Origin: a virus
Strand: one strand, 5' to 3'
IMG/VR virus record: IMGVR_UViG_3300042691_011070
Span: 1-37,529 of that record
Length of the DNA stretch: 37,529 bases
The stretch's first letter is position 1, and every line of letters begins with the position of its first letter. Positions 344 to 25,825 of this stretch are shown piece by piece. The notes under the pieces are model-generated. The model worked only from the letters and a program-made list of their open reading frames with translations, had not been told where the DNA came from and searched no databases. The position numbers and the translations under genes were made by a program.

Positions 344-676
344 TTATGCATAGTGTGTAGTGTTGCTGCCTAGTTCACGGGCCTTGTCAAACCATTTCTT
401 AAGTAGGCCCCGGTCCTTAAGATGGTGATACGTAAAGAAGGATCTGTGCGTGCTGGTGTCGTATGTGTTCTGAGTCGCATGCTGTATGCGATTTCTGTAG
501 TCTGACAGCGTTATCTCGACTGCTTCTCCATAGCTGCCGCTGTAACTGACGCGGACTTTCACCATGCCCCTTTCCTCGTCAAGCTTAAGGCTTACGAGTC
601 TCCTGAAGTATGCGAATGCCGAGTCCGCTTCTTGCGCCTCATTGAGTAAGACGTTTGTTTTTCCTCTGAACATCAT
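344..676 (-). CDS. Hypothetical early protein, 110 aa
   Basis: I do not recognise this protein. It starts at the first of two adjacent ATG codons, 7 nt after a perfect AAGGAGG, and overlaps the upstream amidotransferase stop codon by 4 nt (ATGA), so translation is probably coupled. The sequence is mixed alpha/beta in appearance, without signal peptide or membrane segment. The N-terminal half (EAQEADSAFAYFRRLVSL) looks helical and the middle (VKVRVSYSGSYGEAVEITL) looks like paired beta strands. It ends only 10 nt before the start of the basic 99-residue protein. Confidence 0.6.
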   Translation of the reverse strand: MMFRGKTNVLLNEAQEADSAFAYFRRLVSLKLDEERGMVKVRVSYSGSYGEAVEITLSDYRNRIQHATQNTYDTSTHRSFFTYHHLKDRGLLKKWFDKARELGSNTTHYA

Positions 677-1725
677 GCTGTAGCCTCCTTAGTTTTAGGT
701 TGAGTGATACCACCAAGATCCATCAGTACATCCTCCATGTCTACCCACAGGTCAATGATCGTCTCAGCTGCCCAGTCAGGATCATTGGCAACCTTGTCGC
801 AGATAGCCTCGGATGTGTAGTGCTTGTTCTTCTCATCTCCAAGCAACTCATAGATGAAGTGAGATGCTTTCATTGGGTGCTGCTGTGACCAGCGAAGTAC
901 GCCGTCGTAGTCCTCGAGCATCAGGCTGTTATAGCTTGAGCGAATCAAACGCTTCAGCTGAGCCGATGTCAGCCTGCCCATCTCGGCAGCAACCTTTGCC
1001 TTCTTCTTTGGCTTAGCCTTTACCTTGGGCTTGATGTTCCCCTTGTAGTCCAGTGACAGCTGCTGCTGCTCCCGCTCGATGGCATCCCACTGGCGCCATG
1101 TCGGGCTGGTTGCGAACTTGCTGTGGTCGTACTTGGGGTAGGACACAGGAGCTGGCGGCGTACCGTAACCAAACTTCCAAGGTGTCCAAGCGTATGTGTT
1201 TGAGTACCACATCCCTTCGTGATCAATGCCGCTATCACGATTGATGATGAAGCATTCGCCCTGCTGATTCATCAGAGCGAACTTGTTGCTGCGTCCGATG
1301 TGATTGCCGATCAGCTTGAGGAACGCTTCTTGGTAAAGCAACTCAGGGTGAGCGGTCAGCAATGGCTTCAGGTAGTCATTGATGTAATGCCATGTGTCGG
1401 ACATCTTGGTATCAGCTGCATTGCCGGTGGACAGGATGCCGTTGTGTGCCATCCAGATACCCGGCGTCACCTCATATGGGTGGCAGTTCTCCAAGTCGAT
1501 GTCGCCGTGCGTCTGCATGCGGAAGTGGATCACAGCCTCGTGGCATGCGACCTCTTTGTAGTACAGGTCCTCGATCTGCTGCAATGTACCTACCATCTTT
1601 ACTATCTTTACTTCGTTACCACGATTCACGATTGCGCCGAAACCGTCTCGGTTCTTGCTGTAGAAGTCTTGCAGTTGTTCCGAGCTGAAGAAACCATCCT
1701 TTGGCTGATGAATGAGAATACACAT
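673..1725 (-). CDS. Class II glutamine amidotransferase
   Basis: This is an Ntn-hydrolase-type amidotransferase, which releases ammonia from glutamine and passes it to a partner enzyme. The nucleophile would be Cys2, exposed after Met removal (MCILI). The family motifs follow in order: HFRMQTHG at 67-74 (substrate Arg), NCHPYE at 80-85 and HNG at 94-96 (oxyanion hole Asn-Gly), then a conserved-type SDT near 109-111. The catalytic domain covers about residues 2-180. After it comes a Lys/Pro-rich linker (PKVKAKPKKKAK, about 226-244) and an unrecognised C-terminal region of about 100 residues. It sits directly downstream of an amidoligase gene on the same strand, suggesting the two act together. 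The start is preceded by AAAGGAAG. Domain assignment is secure; the acceptor substrate is unknown. Confidence 0.88.
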   Translation of the reverse strand: MCILIHQPKDGFFSSEQLQDFYSKNRDGFGAIVNRGNEVKIVKMVGTLQQIEDLYYKEVACHEAVIHFRMQTHGDIDLENCHPYEVTPGIWMAHNGILSTGNAADTKMSDTWHYINDYLKPLLTAHPELLYQEAFLKLIGNHIGRSNKFALMNQQGECFIINRDSGIDHEGMWYSNTYAWTPWKFGYGTPPAPVSYPKYDHSKFATSPTWRQWDAIEREQQQLSLDYKGNIKPKVKAKPKKKAKVAAEMGRLTSAQLKRLIRSSYNSLMLEDYDGVLRWSQQHPMKASHFIYELLGDEKNKHYTSEAICDKVANDPDWAAETIIDLWVDMEDVLMDLGGITQPKTKEATA

Positions 1726-1766
1726 TTGAGATCTTCCTTTCGTTAGTAGATTGAGATTGGTATTGC

Positions 1767-3251
1767 TTATGCTGCTTGGCGTTCGTTGTCATGATCGGCA
1801 TCCAATGCAAGGTAGCTGCGCAGGAACTTGGTATCGCTGCGGTTCTCGCGCTGCATGACGAACTTCTTAAACCCTATGGATGTGAAGTCTTGGATCGCAG
1901 TCACGCCCGGGGTACAGAAGGCGAGCACTGCATTGCAGAACTCCAACGCTGCCATGATTGACTCATAGCGTAGGGACCCACGGAAGATACGGAACTCAAT
2001 GGTCTTAGGGTTCTGTACATTGAGCGCTTCGTATCGCTCGCCCGTGTTCTTGTTGTGCGGTGTGAACTTAGCCATCTCATGCTTGATCCGGCAGTAGCCA
2101 CCGCTATACCGACGAGCAATCGAACGGATGAGCGCCTCGTTACGGACGTCATTCAAGAACGACTGAACCCGGTAGATCTGAGACTGGGTTACGTACTCCC
2201 TACCCACGTGGACATGGAAGCCGCAGCGTCCACCCTCATGTGAGCGCATACCCTTCTTGACCTCGTTGTTGGTCAGGAACAGAGCGAACTTCTCGCGGTG
2301 TACGTCAAGGCCAGCAGGCTGAGTGATTAGCTCGAAGCCCTCACCAATAGACCCGTCACGCTCGAAGTAGCAATACTCACCTACTTGTCCGCCCGGGTTG
2401 AGCAGCTCATGCACCCGCCCAGCTGCGACAGTTGGTTGCCCAGTCCGAACCTCGACCTCCAGCTCGCAACCGAAAGCGCGGCGGTTAGACTTGAACCAAG
2501 GCGACTCAATAACATTGAAGCCTTTGTTGCGTGAGCTGTGATAGTTGTCGATCAGTCCCTGATAAGGACTCCAGCTGGTATCGTGGTAGATCTGACGCCG
2601 CGCATCATAGACAACGTTGGATCTGCGGCGGTCATGTATCTGAGTCGTTTGCCCATGCACAAAGACAGGAACTGCGAACTCAGTGAGGACCAAATATCCA
2701 TGTGCATCTTCGACTCGAGCGCCATCGTTCATTAACGTTTGTGCGCAGGCACTGCAGCATGTCTCTTGGCGAGCGTACTCGGTGGCATTGCCCTGCAGAA
2801 CTCTTCTGCGTTCGCCTCTTTCGAGGTGACCACATTCCTCTCGTTGAATGCTGTGCTTCTGTGCTACGCCGAGCATCCATTCCTCTTGGCCTTGCTCTGC
2901 AAACTTAGGCAGGTACTCTTCAATCAGTGGAACTACATTGACTCCGCTATCTGTGAGGCGGTCACGCTTGATGTAATCCATCAAGAAAGTGATACGCAAG
3001 CAGGACTGCGGATGGGTACGCTTATACTTCTGAAGCCTGTCTCTGATATCGTCAGGCACGGAGCCGAAAGCAATGACGTCTGATACAACGATGGCGTCGA
3101 TCAGTACAGCCCACTTGTTATCGCCTACTCTGTGGCCGCTTGCCCGAGAGATAGACTTGAGCATTCGCTTGAGCAACATATCAAGGAATGTTTCGCGCTG
3201 GAATCCCGTCGCCAACAACCGCTGACGGGCATAGGTGTATAGCTGGATCAT
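1767..3251 (-). CDS. Amidoligase with glutamine-synthetase-like fold
   Basis: The C-terminal half carries the motif series of Amidoligase_2-type enzymes (glutamine synthetase fold), which form amide bonds using ATP: FGCELEVE (about 260-267), RDGSIG (298-303), CGFHVHVG (343-350), RYEALN (406-411) and TIEFRIFRGS (417-426). The acidic and His residues of these motifs would bind metal and nucleotide. The N-terminal 250 residues are unrecognised but hold a Cys/His cluster (C140, H142, C165, C166, C169) that could bind zinc. I chose the internal ATG because AAGGAG lies 6 nt before it; an upstream in-frame ATG at 3287 has no such site. Length is 494 residues. It is followed by the class II glutamine amidotransferase, a known partner type for these ligases. 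The substrate is not readable from sequence. Confidence 0.85.
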   Translation of the reverse strand: MIQLYTYARQRLLATGFQRETFLDMLLKRMLKSISRASGHRVGDNKWAVLIDAIVVSDVIAFGSVPDDIRDRLQKYKRTHPQSCLRITFLMDYIKRDRLTDSGVNVVPLIEEYLPKFAEQGQEEWMLGVAQKHSIQREECGHLERGERRRVLQGNATEYARQETCCSACAQTLMNDGARVEDAHGYLVLTEFAVPVFVHGQTTQIHDRRRSNVVYDARRQIYHDTSWSPYQGLIDNYHSSRNKGFNVIESPWFKSNRRAFGCELEVEVRTGQPTVAAGRVHELLNPGGQVGEYCYFERDGSIGEGFELITQPAGLDVHREKFALFLTNNEVKKGMRSHEGGRCGFHVHVGREYVTQSQIYRVQSFLNDVRNEALIRSIARRYSGGYCRIKHEMAKFTPHNKNTGERYEALNVQNPKTIEFRIFRGSLRYESIMAALEFCNAVLAFCTPGVTAIQDFTSIGFKKFVMQRENRSDTKFLRSYLALDADHDNERQAA

Positions 3252-3279: not shown

Positions 3280-3330
3280 AGAGGCAACCGTCCCCTTCAC
3301 TGAAAGTGAGGGGCGGGTGCCGGTGGTTGT
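3280..3330 (-). promoter_or_regulatory. Leader hairpin element L1
   Basis: In the 5' leader of the amidoligase gene a stem of CCCC plus TCAC pairs with GTGA plus GGGG (3292-3313), with a single bulged T and a 5-nt loop. CAACC and GGTTG on either side can pair as an outer stem. A close copy stands before the gene starting at 4803 and a looser one before the gene starting at 7309. There is no T-run, so it is not a simple terminator. The hairpin overlaps the stop codon of the upstream 112-residue gene. An RNA processing or stabilising hairpin (RNase III-like) is the most natural guess. Confidence 0.5.
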
Positions 3331-3635
3331 GAGCGTTTGTCTTTTGGAAAGGGAAGGATGGTGTGCGTCCCAACAGAGAGCTTTGAAAACATCCCGTTAA
3401 GCTTGCGGATATGTTCGTCAGACAATCCAATTCTTGCGCGCATCTCTCGTATCTGAGCTAATGCATCGGATACACCTACCTCTTGCCATCTCCAGTGAGA
3501 GCCGTCGCTTGTCATGATGCTGCTGAGTCTGCCGTTCCAAGTGACTACCTCCCATCCGAACTCAAGAGTCATGAATCGGGCAACCTCTGCCGTCACTTCT
3601 CCCTGACCTGTGAGTAATGCATCCTTCCAGTTCAT
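3297..3635 (-). CDS. Hypothetical early protein, 112 aa
   Basis: I do not recognise this protein. It starts 4 nt after AAAGGAGG and its ATG overlaps the stop of the upstream gene (ATGA). The first 60 residues contain several Trp (NWKDALL, FGWEVVTWNG, SHWRWQEVG), followed by a probable helix (SDALAQIREMRARIGLSDEH) and a Pro-rich, probably disordered tail (QPPAPAPHF). No signal peptide or membrane segment is visible. Its stop codon lies inside leader hairpin L1 of the amidoligase gene. Confidence 0.6.
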   Translation of the reverse strand: MNWKDALLTGQGEVTAEVARFMTLEFGWEVVTWNGRLSSIMTSDGSHWRWQEVGVSDALAQIREMRARIGLSDEHIRKLNGMFSKLSVGTHTILPFPKDKRSQPPAPAPHFQ

Positions 3636-3973
3636 CTTTCCTCCTTTGCAATACGTTCGTAAGCGTTATCAATGTGAGCGCACAACTTCTCAGCCCAGTC
3701 CATCATCTCTTTCTCTTTCTCATCGGAGAACCCGTAGCCTTCGATGATGCAGTCGGCAGCGAATGACATCGTGCCGAGCAGCTGGTCACGCATGCTCTCT
3801 GCTTGGGATGGATGCAGGTACTGCGCATAGGTCGCAGTCATCCGAGTCAGATGCATGCCCATTAGGAGAACCGTCACCGTCTTGGCGTAGCTGTCTCCGT
3901 TGATATTGCGGATCGACTGAATGCTCTCGTCAATCTTTGATCGTGCCTCCTTGAGTAGTCTGTGCTCATGCAT
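3632..3973 (-). CDS. Hypothetical helical early protein, 113 aa
   Basis: I do not recognise this protein. It is almost entirely helical in character, with amphipathic stretches such as RLLKEARSKIDESIQSI at the start and DEKEKEMMDWAEKLCAHI near the end. It lacks signal and membrane segments. The start has GGGAG about 7 nt upstream. It overlaps the previous gene by 8 nt and the next by 4 nt, so it belongs to one translationally coupled chain. A small alpha-helical bundle is the most that can be said. Confidence 0.6.
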   Translation of the reverse strand: MHEHRLLKEARSKIDESIQSIRNINGDSYAKTVTVLLMGMHLTRMTATYAQYLHPSQAESMRDQLLGTMSFAADCIIEGYGFSDEKEKEMMDWAEKLCAHIDNAYERIAKEER

Positions 3974-4824: not shown

Positions 4825-4885
4825 AAGAAGAGGGCCATCCCCTTCACCGAAGGTGAGGGGTGGAACTCTGGTGGTTGAGGAAGAG
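4825..4885 (-). promoter_or_regulatory. Leader hairpin element L2
   Basis: A hairpin at 4839-4860 (CCCC, bulged T, TCACC / GGTGA, GGGG) repeats leader element L1 nearly base for base, including the flanking CTCTTC on the start-codon side and CAACCACC on the far side. Within the stem, the loop-closing pair differs (T-A or mismatch in L1, C-G here) while the helix is preserved. No T-run follows. It stands in the 5' leader of the DUF6876-like gene. Confidence 0.5.
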
Positions 4886-4890
4886 TGAGG

Positions 4891-5097
4891 CTAGGGACGG
4901 GGGAGGATGCCGAGCAAGTCGATCCTCTGCTGCTGGGTATCAGGTGCCTGATCTTTGGAGGGCGGCGTAGCAAGATCGATGAGCTGGTTGGTCAGCCGCT
5001 GGTATTCCAAGCAGATGTCTAAAGCTTCGGCGTACAGTTGGTACTGTGTATCCGAGCTGAGGTACATGAACTGCTCACGAGTCATTGGTTTCTTCAT
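4891..5097 (-). CDS. Hypothetical early protein, 68 aa
   Basis: I do not recognise this helical protein (MTREQFMYLSSDTQYQLYAE in the N-terminal part). I placed the start 5 nt after AAGGAG. The same frame is open back to an ATG at 5202 that overlaps the upstream stop (TAATG) and has AAGGAAG in front, so a 103-residue form is possible; its extra 35 residues look unlike a folded domain. If the short form is right, 5098-5201 is a non-coding leader with no feature I can name. Confidence 0.55.
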   Translation of the reverse strand: MKKPMTREQFMYLSSDTQYQLYAEALDICLEYQRLTNQLIDLATPPSKDQAPDTQQQRIDLLGILPRP

Positions 5098-5201
5098 AGG
5101 ATCTCCTTTCAGTTGTCGTTTTCGCCACAGCACGGAACGATCAGATGACTGACTGCCTGCTGGGCATGAGTCTGTGGTATCTCGAGGGAAAGGCAACAGC
5201 A

Positions 5202-5378
5202 TTACTCTTCCTTGCGATCAGCGATGGCACGGATCTTCATCCATGTATCGAAGATCACCTCTGAATCTCCTGTTGCTATTGCATCACCGATACGGTGCAG
5301 TGCTAACTTGTGCTGCTCTATCACCCAGTCTTTGACACGCAGTCGGTTCTCTAGAACCATACGATCGTTGTCGTTCAT
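5202..5378 (-). CDS. Hypothetical small early protein, 58 aa
   Basis: This short gene starts 5 nt after AAGGAG and overlaps the upstream stop by ATGA. The 58 residues begin MNDNDRMVLENRLRVKDW and end IRAIADRKEE. The composition is that of a small soluble helical protein. No family recognised. The ribosome binding site, the start/stop overlap on one side and adjacency on the other support it as a real gene. Confidence 0.6.
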   Translation of the reverse strand: MNDNDRMVLENRLRVKDWVIEQHKLALHRIGDAIATGDSEVIFDTWMKIRAIADRKEE

Positions 5379-8030: not shown

Positions 8031-8105
8031 CGCGGAGTAGCGCAGCGGTAGAGCGGCGGACTCATAATCCGCAGGTCGGTGGTTCGATTCCATCCTCCGC
8101 AACCA
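8031..8105 (+). tRNA. tRNA with CAU anticodon, initiator-like (fMet-type)
   Basis: A complete 75-nt cloverleaf with encoded CCA. The acceptor stem has six pairs (GCGGAG/CTCCGC) below a C1.A72 mismatch. The anticodon arm is GCGGA-CTCATAA-TCCGC, giving CAU, and the T arm is GGTGG-TTCGATT-CCATC. A73 is the discriminator base. The C1.A72 mismatch is the formylation signal of bacterial initiator tRNA. However, of the three G:C pairs expected at 29-31/39-41 only two are present (A31:U39), the D stem has elongator-like C11:G24, and G12.A23 is mismatched. It is therefore an initiator-like hybrid rather than a clear copy of a host tRNA. It lies just upstream of the late genes. Confidence 0.9.
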
Positions 8106-22071: not shown

Positions 22072-22608
22072 ATGTTCGCGCCGTTCCCTCTTAATATCGA
22101 CACTAAGGATGTTTTCTTGGCTGTTGAGCAACTGTTTTGCAACGGTGAGTACATGAAACAGCAGAAGTACGGCGTTGCGCTTCTGAGACAGAAGTCGTTC
22201 ACATCTGTTCCAAACCGCGTGTACGACACCAAAGAGGAAGATGAGAAACGAGTCATTGCGCAGCTCCCGGATAAACTACTAGAGATCGAGGTCCCTCGGC
22301 TTTGGGTGCTGAACATTCAGGCCACCCATGACGAAAAGGTAATGCTTGCTCCGCATACTGATATTGGGCGAGTCACCACTGTCAACTTCTACAGCAACAC
22401 GAACGGAGAACGCACCTGCTTCTACGAGTATGGTGCGGGCGGTTCAATCAAAGAGATAGGTAGCTTTGTTGCCAAGGATGGAGAAGCATGGGTTCTTGAT
22501 GTGAGTAAGCCTCATGGGGTAGAGCTAATACCCGGGAAAACGCGTCGAGTTCTGTCTCTTTCATTTCTCACAACTCCTTACGAGCGCGTGATGGAAGCGC
22601 TTTCATGA
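22072..22608 (+). CDS. 2OG-Fe(II) oxygenase-like protein (first of two)
   Basis: The double-stranded beta-helix core shows a plausible Fe(II) and 2-oxoglutarate triad: HTD (H95, D97) in LAPHTDIGRVTTVNFYSN, distal H148 in VSKPHGVELI, and an Arg at 158-159 before LSLSF for the 2OG carboxylate. Such enzymes hydroxylate or demethylate proteins, nucleic acids or small molecules. AAGGAG precedes the ATG. It is directly coupled (TCATGATG) to the desaturase gene, which suggests related substrates or joint regulation. Length 178 is small but normal for phage members. The substrate is unknown. Confidence 0.75.
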   Translation: MFAPFPLNIDTKDVFLAVEQLFCNGEYMKQQKYGVALLRQKSFTSVPNRVYDTKEEDEKRVIAQLPDKLLEIEVPRLWVLNIQATHDEKVMLAPHTDIGRVTTVNFYSNTNGERTCFYEYGAGGSIKEIGSFVAKDGEAWVLDVSKPHGVELIPGKTRRVLSLSFLTTPYERVMEALS

Positions 22609-23372
22609 TGCGATTGTCGGAGTTTACGAAGCTGCGCCTCACTATGTTGATGGTGCATATCGCCGCAGTCTTCGGGGTGGTTCTGCTTTGGGATCCAAAG
22701 TGGCTGTTGTTAAGTGCCGCGTGCAGCGTTCTTTTTCTTTGGGTCGGGCAGGAGATGTACTGCCACCGTTATCTGTGCCACAGGTCGTTCAAGATGCCAT
22801 TGTGGGCGCAAAGACTGTGCGCTGTTCTATCGATATACAACTTGTACGGAAACCCGATCGGGATTGCGGCAACGCACACTACACACCACAAGTACTCTGA
22901 CACGGACCGCGACCCGCATCCTTCTTCCACCCCTTGGCAATCGTGGTTCTGGGTATCGAAGAACTTTGGAAAGTCGATTGACCAAGGGACGGCAAAGCGC
23001 CTAATGCAGGATCCTTGGTTGAACTTCATGGCGCGGCACTACCTTAAAATCTACCTGAGCACTCTGTTCGTGATAGGTCTGGTTAGCCTGAAAGCGCTAG
23101 TGTACGGGCTGCTCGTTACGCATGTGTACGCCTTTTTTGCAAACGGGCTGGTGACTGTTTTTTGCCACGGCAAAGGCTACAGAACGCATGACACGCGAGA
23201 CACCTCAACCAACAACCATTGGGTGAACTTGATGCTGGGGTGGAATGGGGTCGCGTTCCACAACAACCATCACGCAAAGCCTACGCGGTTCACAACCTCA
23301 GAGAGTCGGAGTGAGGTCGATTTGATCGGTGTAATTATTCGGGTTCTGTTTGCCAAAGAAAAGGCGTTATGA
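22605..23372 (+). CDS. Fatty acid desaturase
   Basis: This is an integral-membrane di-iron desaturase of the acyl-CoA / acyl-lipid delta-9 type, which introduces a double bond into an acyl chain using O2 and electrons. The three His boxes are present: HRYLCH (54-59), HTTHH (91-95, within HTTHHKYSDTDRDPH) and HNNHH (219-223). NNH at 203-205 lies before box 3, as in stearoyl-CoA desaturases. Hydrophobic segments lie at about 11-29, 32-48 and 150-185. At 255 residues it is short but has the complete catalytic set. Start and stop overlap the flanking oxygenase genes. A desaturase in a podovirus tail/lysis region is unusual. No ferredoxin or cytochrome b5 domain is present, so host electron donors would be needed. 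Confidence 0.9.
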   Translation: MMRLSEFTKLRLTMLMVHIAAVFGVVLLWDPKWLLLSAACSVLFLWVGQEMYCHRYLCHRSFKMPLWAQRLCAVLSIYNLYGNPIGIAATHTTHHKYSDTDRDPHPSSTPWQSWFWVSKNFGKSIDQGTAKRLMQDPWLNFMARHYLKIYLSTLFVIGLVSLKALVYGLLVTHVYAFFANGLVTVFCHGKGYRTHDTRDTSTNNHWVNLMLGWNGVAFHNNHHAKPTRFTTSESRSEVDLIGVIIRVLFAKEKAL

Positions 23373-24940: not shown

Positions 24941-25409
24941 ATGGATATTGATAGGGCTGGTTGTGGCTGCGGCATTTGGCGCGGGGTGGAGCTGGAACGG
25001 CGCCCGTCTTCAGGCTGCATGGGATGCGGAGAAGGCAGAGCTAAATGCAAAGGCTGTGGAGTCTGTTCAGGTTGCAATGAATCAGGCGCTCGAGGCGGAG
25101 CGAGATGCAGCAAAACAGATTGCAGCGACGTCAGCCAAGTATCAAAAAGCTCTCAAGGAGAAACAGAATGAAGAAGCTGCTGCTATTGAGCGTTCTCGCA
25201 ATGGCGGGTTGTACATCAACGCCAAGTGTCCGAGTGGTGGAAACGGTGTGTCCGAAACCTCCACCTCCTCCAGCGGACGTGATGGTGAAACGCGAGTCGA
25301 ACTTCCTCGAGCGGATGGAGAGTTTCTTATCAGGCTCGCCGCAGAAGCCGATCGCGTCACCGAGCAACTGAATTCTTGTCAACAACTCCTCGAACAGCAA
25401 TCTAAATGA
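24918..25409 (+). CDS. Rz: i-spanin (Rz-like)
   Basis: The inner-membrane spanin has an N-terminal anchor (IKWILIGLVVAAAFGAGWSW, about 6-25) and a periplasmic coiled coil (about 30-100: AAWDAEKAELNAKAVESVQV onward). Its C-terminus is helical and ends NSCQQLLEQQSK. With the o-spanin it fuses inner and outer membranes at lysis. The start is the ATG within the holin gene's end; an upstream in-frame start at 24822 lies deep inside the holin gene. The o-spanin gene is nested inside in another frame, as in lambda. Length 163. Confidence 0.85.
   Translation: MLNLQTIKWILIGLVVAAAFGAGWSWNGARLQAAWDAEKAELNAKAVESVQVAMNQALEAERDAAKQIAATSAKYQKALKEKQNEEAAAIERSRNGGLYINAKCPSGGNGVSETSTSSSGRDGETRVELPRADGEFLIRLAAEADRVTEQLNSCQQLLEQQSK
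25168..25371 (+). CDS. Rz1: o-spanin lipoprotein (Rz1-like), nested in Rz
   Basis: The frame embedded in Rz begins MKKLLLLSVLAMAGC, a lipoprotein signal with lipobox AMAGC (Cys15 is the lipidation site). A Pro-rich segment PKPPPPPADV follows, as in other Rz1 proteins. AAGGAG precedes the ATG. The mature part is 53 residues. It anchors in the outer membrane and pairs with Rz. Nesting, lipobox and Pro tract together make the call firm. Confidence 0.88.
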   Translation: MKKLLLLSVLAMAGCTSTPSVRVVETVCPKPPPPPADVMVKRESNFLERMESFLSGSPQKPIASPSN

Positions 25410-25825
25410 TCAACTCCAGAGACATTAAAGAACTCCTTCCGGTTGTGCGTGAGAAGGTTGAAAAGTTCCAGCAGTTGTGCAAAGAGAACAACATCGATCT
25501 ATTGATCACTTCAACCTTCCGGGACGCTGAGAGCCAGAACGCGCTCTACGCTCAAGGCCGTACAGCCCCGGGGAAAATTGTCACAAACGCCAAAGCTGGG
25601 CAGTCATGGCACAACCATCGGTGCGCTATTGATGTAGTCCCACTCGTCAACGGTAAGGCCAACTGGAACACCAAAGACCCGGTGTGGAAAAAGCTAGGTG
25701 AGTTGGGCAAACAAGCTGGGCTGGAGTGGGCGGGTGAATGGAAGAAGTTCAAGGAGATGGCGCACTTCCAGTACACAGGTGGGCTGACATTGGCACAGCT
25801 TCAGGCTGGCGGAAAGGTTGCGTGA
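25406..25825 (+). CDS. Endolysin, M15-family peptidase
   Basis: The 139-residue protein belongs to the VanY/M15 peptidases, which cut peptide cross-links of peptidoglycan (L-Ala-D-Glu or D-Ala-type bonds). Motifs: STFRDAESQNALYAQGRT, SWHNHRCAIDVVP with Zn ligands H69 and D76, and EMAHFQY with E117 (catalytic) and H120 (Zn). No signal peptide, so release depends on the holin. Both ends overlap neighbours (ATGA and TGATG). Confidence 0.9.
   Translation: MINSRDIKELLPVVREKVEKFQQLCKENNIDLLITSTFRDAESQNALYAQGRTAPGKIVTNAKAGQSWHNHRCAIDVVPLVNGKANWNTKDPVWKKLGELGKQAGLEWAGEWKKFKEMAHFQYTGGLTLAQLQAGGKVA

Follow-up and report, generated by a model that had tools for sequence, protein, structure and literature searches.

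An amidoligase and a glutamine amidotransferase (GAT) occur together in MEP401, in MEP402 and in more than 30 related viral genomes from metagenomes (PMC10580990), and in the LUZ24-like and RIO-1-like phages this pair lies within a larger set of genes proposed for peptidoglycan modification (PMC5498523, PMC3890496). Peptidoglycan modification has been proposed for the phiEco32, RIO-1-like and OM43 phages (PMC5498523, PMC10580990), and the idea of a "peptidoglycan modification cassette" is credited to Iyer 2009 where it is cited in PMC10580990. No modified substrate is demonstrated in these publications (PMC10580990, PMC5498523, PMC3890496), and the role in the wall is a proposal. The pairing of the two enzymes in phages is not new (PMC10580990, PMC5498523, PMC3890496). 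The original prediction for the locus described here held in its enzyme classes, its conserved pairing and its extra domains, the pairing itself having already been published; the targets it suggested, a host protein, a precursor of peptidoglycan or a small peptide, are candidates.

Gene organization

The locus was found in a 37,529-base IMG/VR virus record (IMGVR_UViG_3300042691_011070), the whole of which is referred to below as the window. The window encodes an amidoligase (AL) and a class II GAT-like protein (GAT), both transcribed leftward and separated by 41 bases (Table 1). Both open reading frames lie where they had been placed, and the motifs quoted for them are present (Cys2, NCHPYE and HNG in GAT; GCELEVE, CGFHVHVG and TIEFRIFRG in AL). 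Two genes upstream of AL is a gene for a 113-residue helical protein (window 3632-3973 (-)), which is kept in about 22 related loci and for which a family search returned no match.

A tRNA-Met (CAT) gene (8031-8105 (+)) separates the two arms of the window. The late arm contains a fatty acid desaturase gene (22605-23372 (+); PF00487, E 2.6e-15), an unusual cargo for a phage. The desaturase gene is adjoined by that of a 2OG-Fe(II) oxygenase (PF13759; 23369-24061), and its neighbourhood also includes a gene for a protein without assignment (22072-22608).

Table 1. Features of the AL-GAT locus, in window coordinates
Feature	Position	Strand	Basis
GAT, class II (Ntn-type) glutamine amidotransferase-like, 350 aa	673..1725	(-)	ORF, Pfam, family profile, model
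GAT C-terminal helical domain, aa 254-338	712..966	(-)	confident in model, found in most relatives; no assigned fold
GAT basic linker, probably disordered, aa 192-253	967..1152	(-)	low pLDDT
GAT glutaminase domain, aa 1-191	1153..1725	(-)	residue counts, predicted model, fold matches
AL, Amidoligase_2 (PF12224), 494 aa from ATG, coordinates with stop	1767..3251	(-)	ORF, Pfam, model
AL catalytic GS/GCS-fold domain, aa 250-494	1770..2504	(-)	fold matches, invariant residues
AL Cys-rich beta region, aa 135-225	2577..2849	(-)	model, residue counts
AL N-terminal helical domain, aa 1-132	2856..3251	(-)	predicted model
Stem-loop in AL leader, 39 nt	3283..3321	(-)	z -3.1
112-aa protein directly upstream of AL, with shared tail	3297..3635	(-)	tail motif
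Tail motif SVGTHTILPFP, aa 87-97 of 112-aa protein	3345..3377	(-)	tail comparison
Second stem-loop copy, core 86% identical, before DUF6876 gene	4835..4863	(-)	sequence comparison

Domains, conserved residues and predicted folds

The enzyme classes assigned to AL and GAT are supported by profile searches, predicted models and comparative genomics. AL matches Pfam Amidoligase_2 with 34.5 bits, above the cut-off of 22. The single GAT sequence scores 18.7 bits against GATase_4, under the cut-off of 23, while a family profile built from 79 relatives, run against the PDB, hits the GlmS glutaminase domain (E 6e-8). Models of both proteins were built from alignments of 75 relatives, from which rows of annotated phage records were left out, and have a mean pLDDT of 92.3 for AL and 85.8 for GAT.

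The predicted model of AL has the GS/GCS fold with the ExE, HxH and ExR residues of Amidoligase_2. Its residues 250-494 align best with YbdK (Z 11.9, 220 residues, rmsd 4.0), a top rank tied with glutamine synthetase (GS), and the catalytic half also resembles many glutamine synthetases at Z 10-12; overall, the YbdK and GS matches of the model run from Z 11.9 to 10, with rmsd 3.3-4.4 over 171-231 residues. The side chains of E263, E265, E307, H346, H348, R381, R406, N411, E419 and R421 are invariant in the 75 relatives.

The glutaminase domain of GAT begins with a Cys directly after the start Met and contains HxR (67-69), THG (72-74), NxHP (80-83), HNG (94-96) and SDT (109-111) motifs. Cys2, R69, G96 and D110 are found in 75/75 relatives and N95 in 74/75, and thus the HNG motif, the conserved Arg and the Asp of SDT that characterize class II GATs are all present. 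The fold of the glutaminase domain is likewise seen in the predicted model, where residues 2-191 match GlmS (Z 13.0, 180-183 residues, rmsd 4.1-4.2) and, within 0.5 Z, EgtC (Z 12.5). Based on the known roles of these motifs in GS and in class II GATs, we take the conserved residues of AL and GAT to be a full catalytic set. Loss of the catalytic Cys pocket or of the acidic residues of the ligase had been set beforehand as a possible refutation; both are conserved, and with the full set in AL and GAT this objection fails.

The extra regions that had been noticed in both proteins, a helical N-terminus and a Cys-rich part in AL and a basic linker and helical C-terminus in GAT, are also recovered. 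The N-terminal helical domain of AL is missing or different in distant relatives. In the Cys-rich region, C140, C166 and C169 occur in 75/75 rows, while Cys137 occurs in 58 rows and His142 in 18. Because three of these positions are invariant and the fourth ligand is either Cys137 or His142, this region is probably a zinc site, with C140, H142, C166 and C169 as the candidate ligands in the window protein. A domain search of AL found no Mur-ligase-like substrate domain. The C-terminus of AL is -AA (window 1770-1775 (-)), as it is in 35/75 relatives; this ending resembles an ssrA/ClpXP-type degron, and the enzyme may be short-lived.

Linkage of AL and GAT

Loci were collected by searching with AL and GAT separately, and the 200 that were fetched take in annotated phages, one MAG and duplicate contigs. 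The two genes are adjacent, on the same strand and with AL upstream in 199/200 loci, confirming the co-occurrence in related phages that had been anticipated. The gap between them ranges from -298 to +126 nt (first-start ORF calls, 199 loci). These locus counts are not independent, since many of them come from recurring contigs and similarity guided the choice of relatives; clustering by AL identity leaves 80 of the 200 loci at 90% and 38 at 50%. The fixed gene order nonetheless places the linkage of AL and GAT far beyond chance. Gene fusion had been considered as proof of coupling and was dropped, as none of the 199 pairs is a fused AL-GAT protein.

The two genes are also inherited together. 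Over 74 loci, the pairwise identities of AL follow those of GAT (r 0.83, against a maximum of 0.12 in 2000 permutations), a result that simple co-inheritance of adjacent genes would also produce. Among relatives found through TerL alone, the pair is present in 15/15 of those with close TerL identity and at least about 6.5 kb upstream of TerL, and is missing in three distant TerL relatives (44-50% identity). Pair-bearing phages span very different hosts, mycobacteria and Methylophilales among them. A scan of bacterial genomes returned two MAG contigs, of which one carries the pair and the other AL alone; the former, binned as bacterial in a Mucilaginibacter MAG, may be a prophage or a mis-binned phage. 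A pair that is nearly inseparable across such diverse phages must do something useful.

Proposed mechanism

With moderate confidence, AL and GAT are proposed to be a two-enzyme, glutamine-dependent amidation system that acts on a carboxylate target. First, GAT would cleave glutamine by means of its N-terminal cysteine, freeing ammonia. AL, a GS-fold ligase, would use ATP to activate the carboxylate as an acyl phosphate, which would then be joined to the GAT-derived ammonia. We infer that the product is a primary amide and that AL and GAT work jointly, probably in a complex with direct ammonia transfer. Recognition of the target would take place through AL's own N-terminal region.

Ammonia donation by GAT is presumed, as EgtC, a gamma-glutamyl amide hydrolase, is nearly as close to it in fold as GlmS; this match and the lack of AL-GAT fusions among the 199 pairs count against the amidation reading. 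The main rival to amidation is a gamma-glutamyl pair similar to EgtA/EgtC, in which AL would link the gamma-carboxyl of glutamate to an amine and GAT would hydrolyze gamma-glutamyl amides, such that the pair adds and removes a protecting group or breaks down a glutamylated compound. The top rank of YbdK, a glutamate-cysteine ligase, among the fold matches of AL (tied with GS) and that of EgtC directly behind GlmS for GAT are consistent with this chemistry, as is the presence of a gamma-glutamyl cyclotransferase alongside the pair in LUZ24 and RIO-1. However, the cyclotransferase and the COOH-NH2 ligase were found in 0/38 pair-bearing records, and the nearest profile match of GAT is GlmS, an ammonia producer; we regard gamma-glutamyl ligation and removal as rather unlikely.

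For glutamine-dependent amidation, a wall peptide is one candidate substrate, a choice compatible with the mechanism above and in line with the published proposals for the phiEco32, RIO-1-like and OM43 phages. The pair would then be a reduced peptidoglycan modification cassette that amidates a wall-peptide carboxylate (D-Glu or diaminopimelate), blocking superinfecting phages or delaying lysis. A widespread substrate fits the occurrence of the pair in phages of very different hosts, and the window carries an M15/VanY-type peptidase gene (25406-25825). In contrast, the other cassette genes are missing from the 38 pair-bearing records and no Mur-ligase-like substrate domain was detected in AL, which leaves the wall peptide a doubtful target.

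A shared C-terminal tail on neighbouring small proteins

The 112-residue protein encoded directly upstream of AL ends in ...SVGTHTILPFPKDKRSQPPAPAPHFQ, which includes a motif with a consensus of about xVGxxTK[LI]P[LF]P. Unrelated small proteins whose genes neighbour the pair carry this tail, which is a new, unexplained feature of the window lineage. The gene directly upstream of AL encodes it in 16/17 loci of the lineage, although the body of the protein is unrelated in some of them. Loci with the tail include L013, L014, L036 and L060 in addition to the window; the other carriers are DUF1281-type proteins (L014, L036), members of a "FLPTEW/MPVEW" family (L036, L060) and of an "EWH..NWKN" family (L036, L060), and others. 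No tail-bearing gene is more than about 4 kb away from the pair, and each of eight records examined has one to three clear carriers, all near it. In total, 23 tails were observed against 0.96 expected from shuffles (maximum 4), a number that corresponds to roughly six to ten unrelated bodies, since many of the carriers are relatives of one another.

The tail is not a copied DNA element, because copies within a single genome use different codons for LPLP; a DNA-level repeat was rejected on this basis. The tail is selected at the protein level. One further window protein (4891-5202) was not counted as a carrier, since its LPFPRD lies near the start, even though it ends in ...GILPRP. A search for similar tails across other lineages returned mostly noise from spurious frames.

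Possible roles of the tail are a signal for docking, localization or degradation, or a tag that marks substrates of the pair. In the latter case, AL and GAT would modify the phage's own tail-bearing small proteins, with the tail either recruiting the enzymes or receiving the modification. The tail upstream of AL in nearly every locus of the lineage, the unrelated carriers close to the pair and the excess over shuffled sequences all point in this direction, and three homologues of tagged proteins, from phages in which the pair was not detected, are without the tail. On the other side, the tail is limited to the lineage of the window, a far narrower range than that of the pair, many tails run 4-21 residues beyond the motif and so are not always at the very C-terminus, and the association may be positional only. 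Modification of the tailed proteins is thus a long shot, and we consider it highly improbable that the pair modifies, or docks to, unrelated phage small proteins via the shared tail in a phage-borne, tag-directed system. Were the tailed neighbours the substrates, the system would count as a new form of protein modification directed by a tag.

Leader hairpin

The hairpin that had been predicted before AL exists as a stem-loop some 32 bases ahead of the AL start, overlapping the preceding gene's stop codon. The stem-loops before AL and before the DUF6876 gene are accompanied by a similar ribosome-binding site. Stem-loops of differing sequence occupy the equivalent place in six other loci (L008, L010, L013, L014, L034 and L036), and not in all relatives. 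A short pyrimidine-rich tract lies 3' of the AL-leader stem-loop, and together they may act as a weak terminator or mark a site of processing. The hairpin has no match in Rfam, the sole Rfam hit in the window being a tRNA, and nothing links the stem-loop to the function of AL or GAT.

Comparison with known systems

Mycobacteriophage Marvin (gp105-gp106) and the Methylophilales phages MEP401/MEP402 have the same two genes, adjacent and in the same order and strand as in the window, with 27-29% (AL) and 31-36% (GAT) identity over about half of the protein. The N-terminal part of AL differs from that of the window protein, and no counterpart of the GAT C-terminus was found in Marvin or MEP401. 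The COOH-NH2 ligase, cyclotransferase and RimK-like genes were likewise not detected in these two records. In GenBank, the amidoligase of the Marvin-group phages is labelled "glutamine amidotransferase domain protein", like its true GAT neighbour, which is probably a mislabel.

The LUZ24/phiEco32/RIO-1 cassette shares Amidoligase_2 and a class II GAT with the window (adjacent in LUZ24, gp18-gp19) and adds a COOH-NH2 ligase, a gamma-glutamyl cyclotransferase and a RimK-like ATP-grasp protein. Profiles for the COOH-NH2 ligase (PF14395) and the cyclotransferase (PF06094) and a search for relatives of LUZ24 gp21 (RimK-like ATP-grasp) each found 0/38 in pair-bearing records, which are possibly incomplete though many are 50-67 kb. 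Among the controls (LUZ24, phiEco32 and RIO-1), PF06094 and gp21 relatives were found in 3/3 and PF14395 in 2/3, RIO-1 being missed though the gene is annotated there; PF14395 had no match in 14 further control genomes either. Profile A5 gave no AL match in the LUZ24, phiEco32 and RIO-1 records. From the cassette, the amidoligase and GAT are therefore found together and the accessory genes are not.

GatD is of the class I (triad) type and MurT has a Mur-ligase fold, and these proteins are unrelated to the AL and GAT of the window. Similar to the proposed system, MurT/GatD of Staphylococcus aureus peptidoglycan amidation consists of a co-transcribed ligase and glutaminase subunit that feed amidation (PMC3267633). 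EgtA/EgtC of ergothioneine synthesis combines a GCS/GS-fold ligase with a class II GAT-fold partner, as does the window pair; EgtC, which hydrolyzes a gamma-glutamyl bond, is a close fold match of the predicted GAT model. Because the COOH-NH2 ligase, cyclotransferase and RimK-like genes are absent from the 38 records while the controls mostly match, the window lineage is a two-gene form in its gene content, in common with Marvin and MEP401, and this form is the simplest version for testing.
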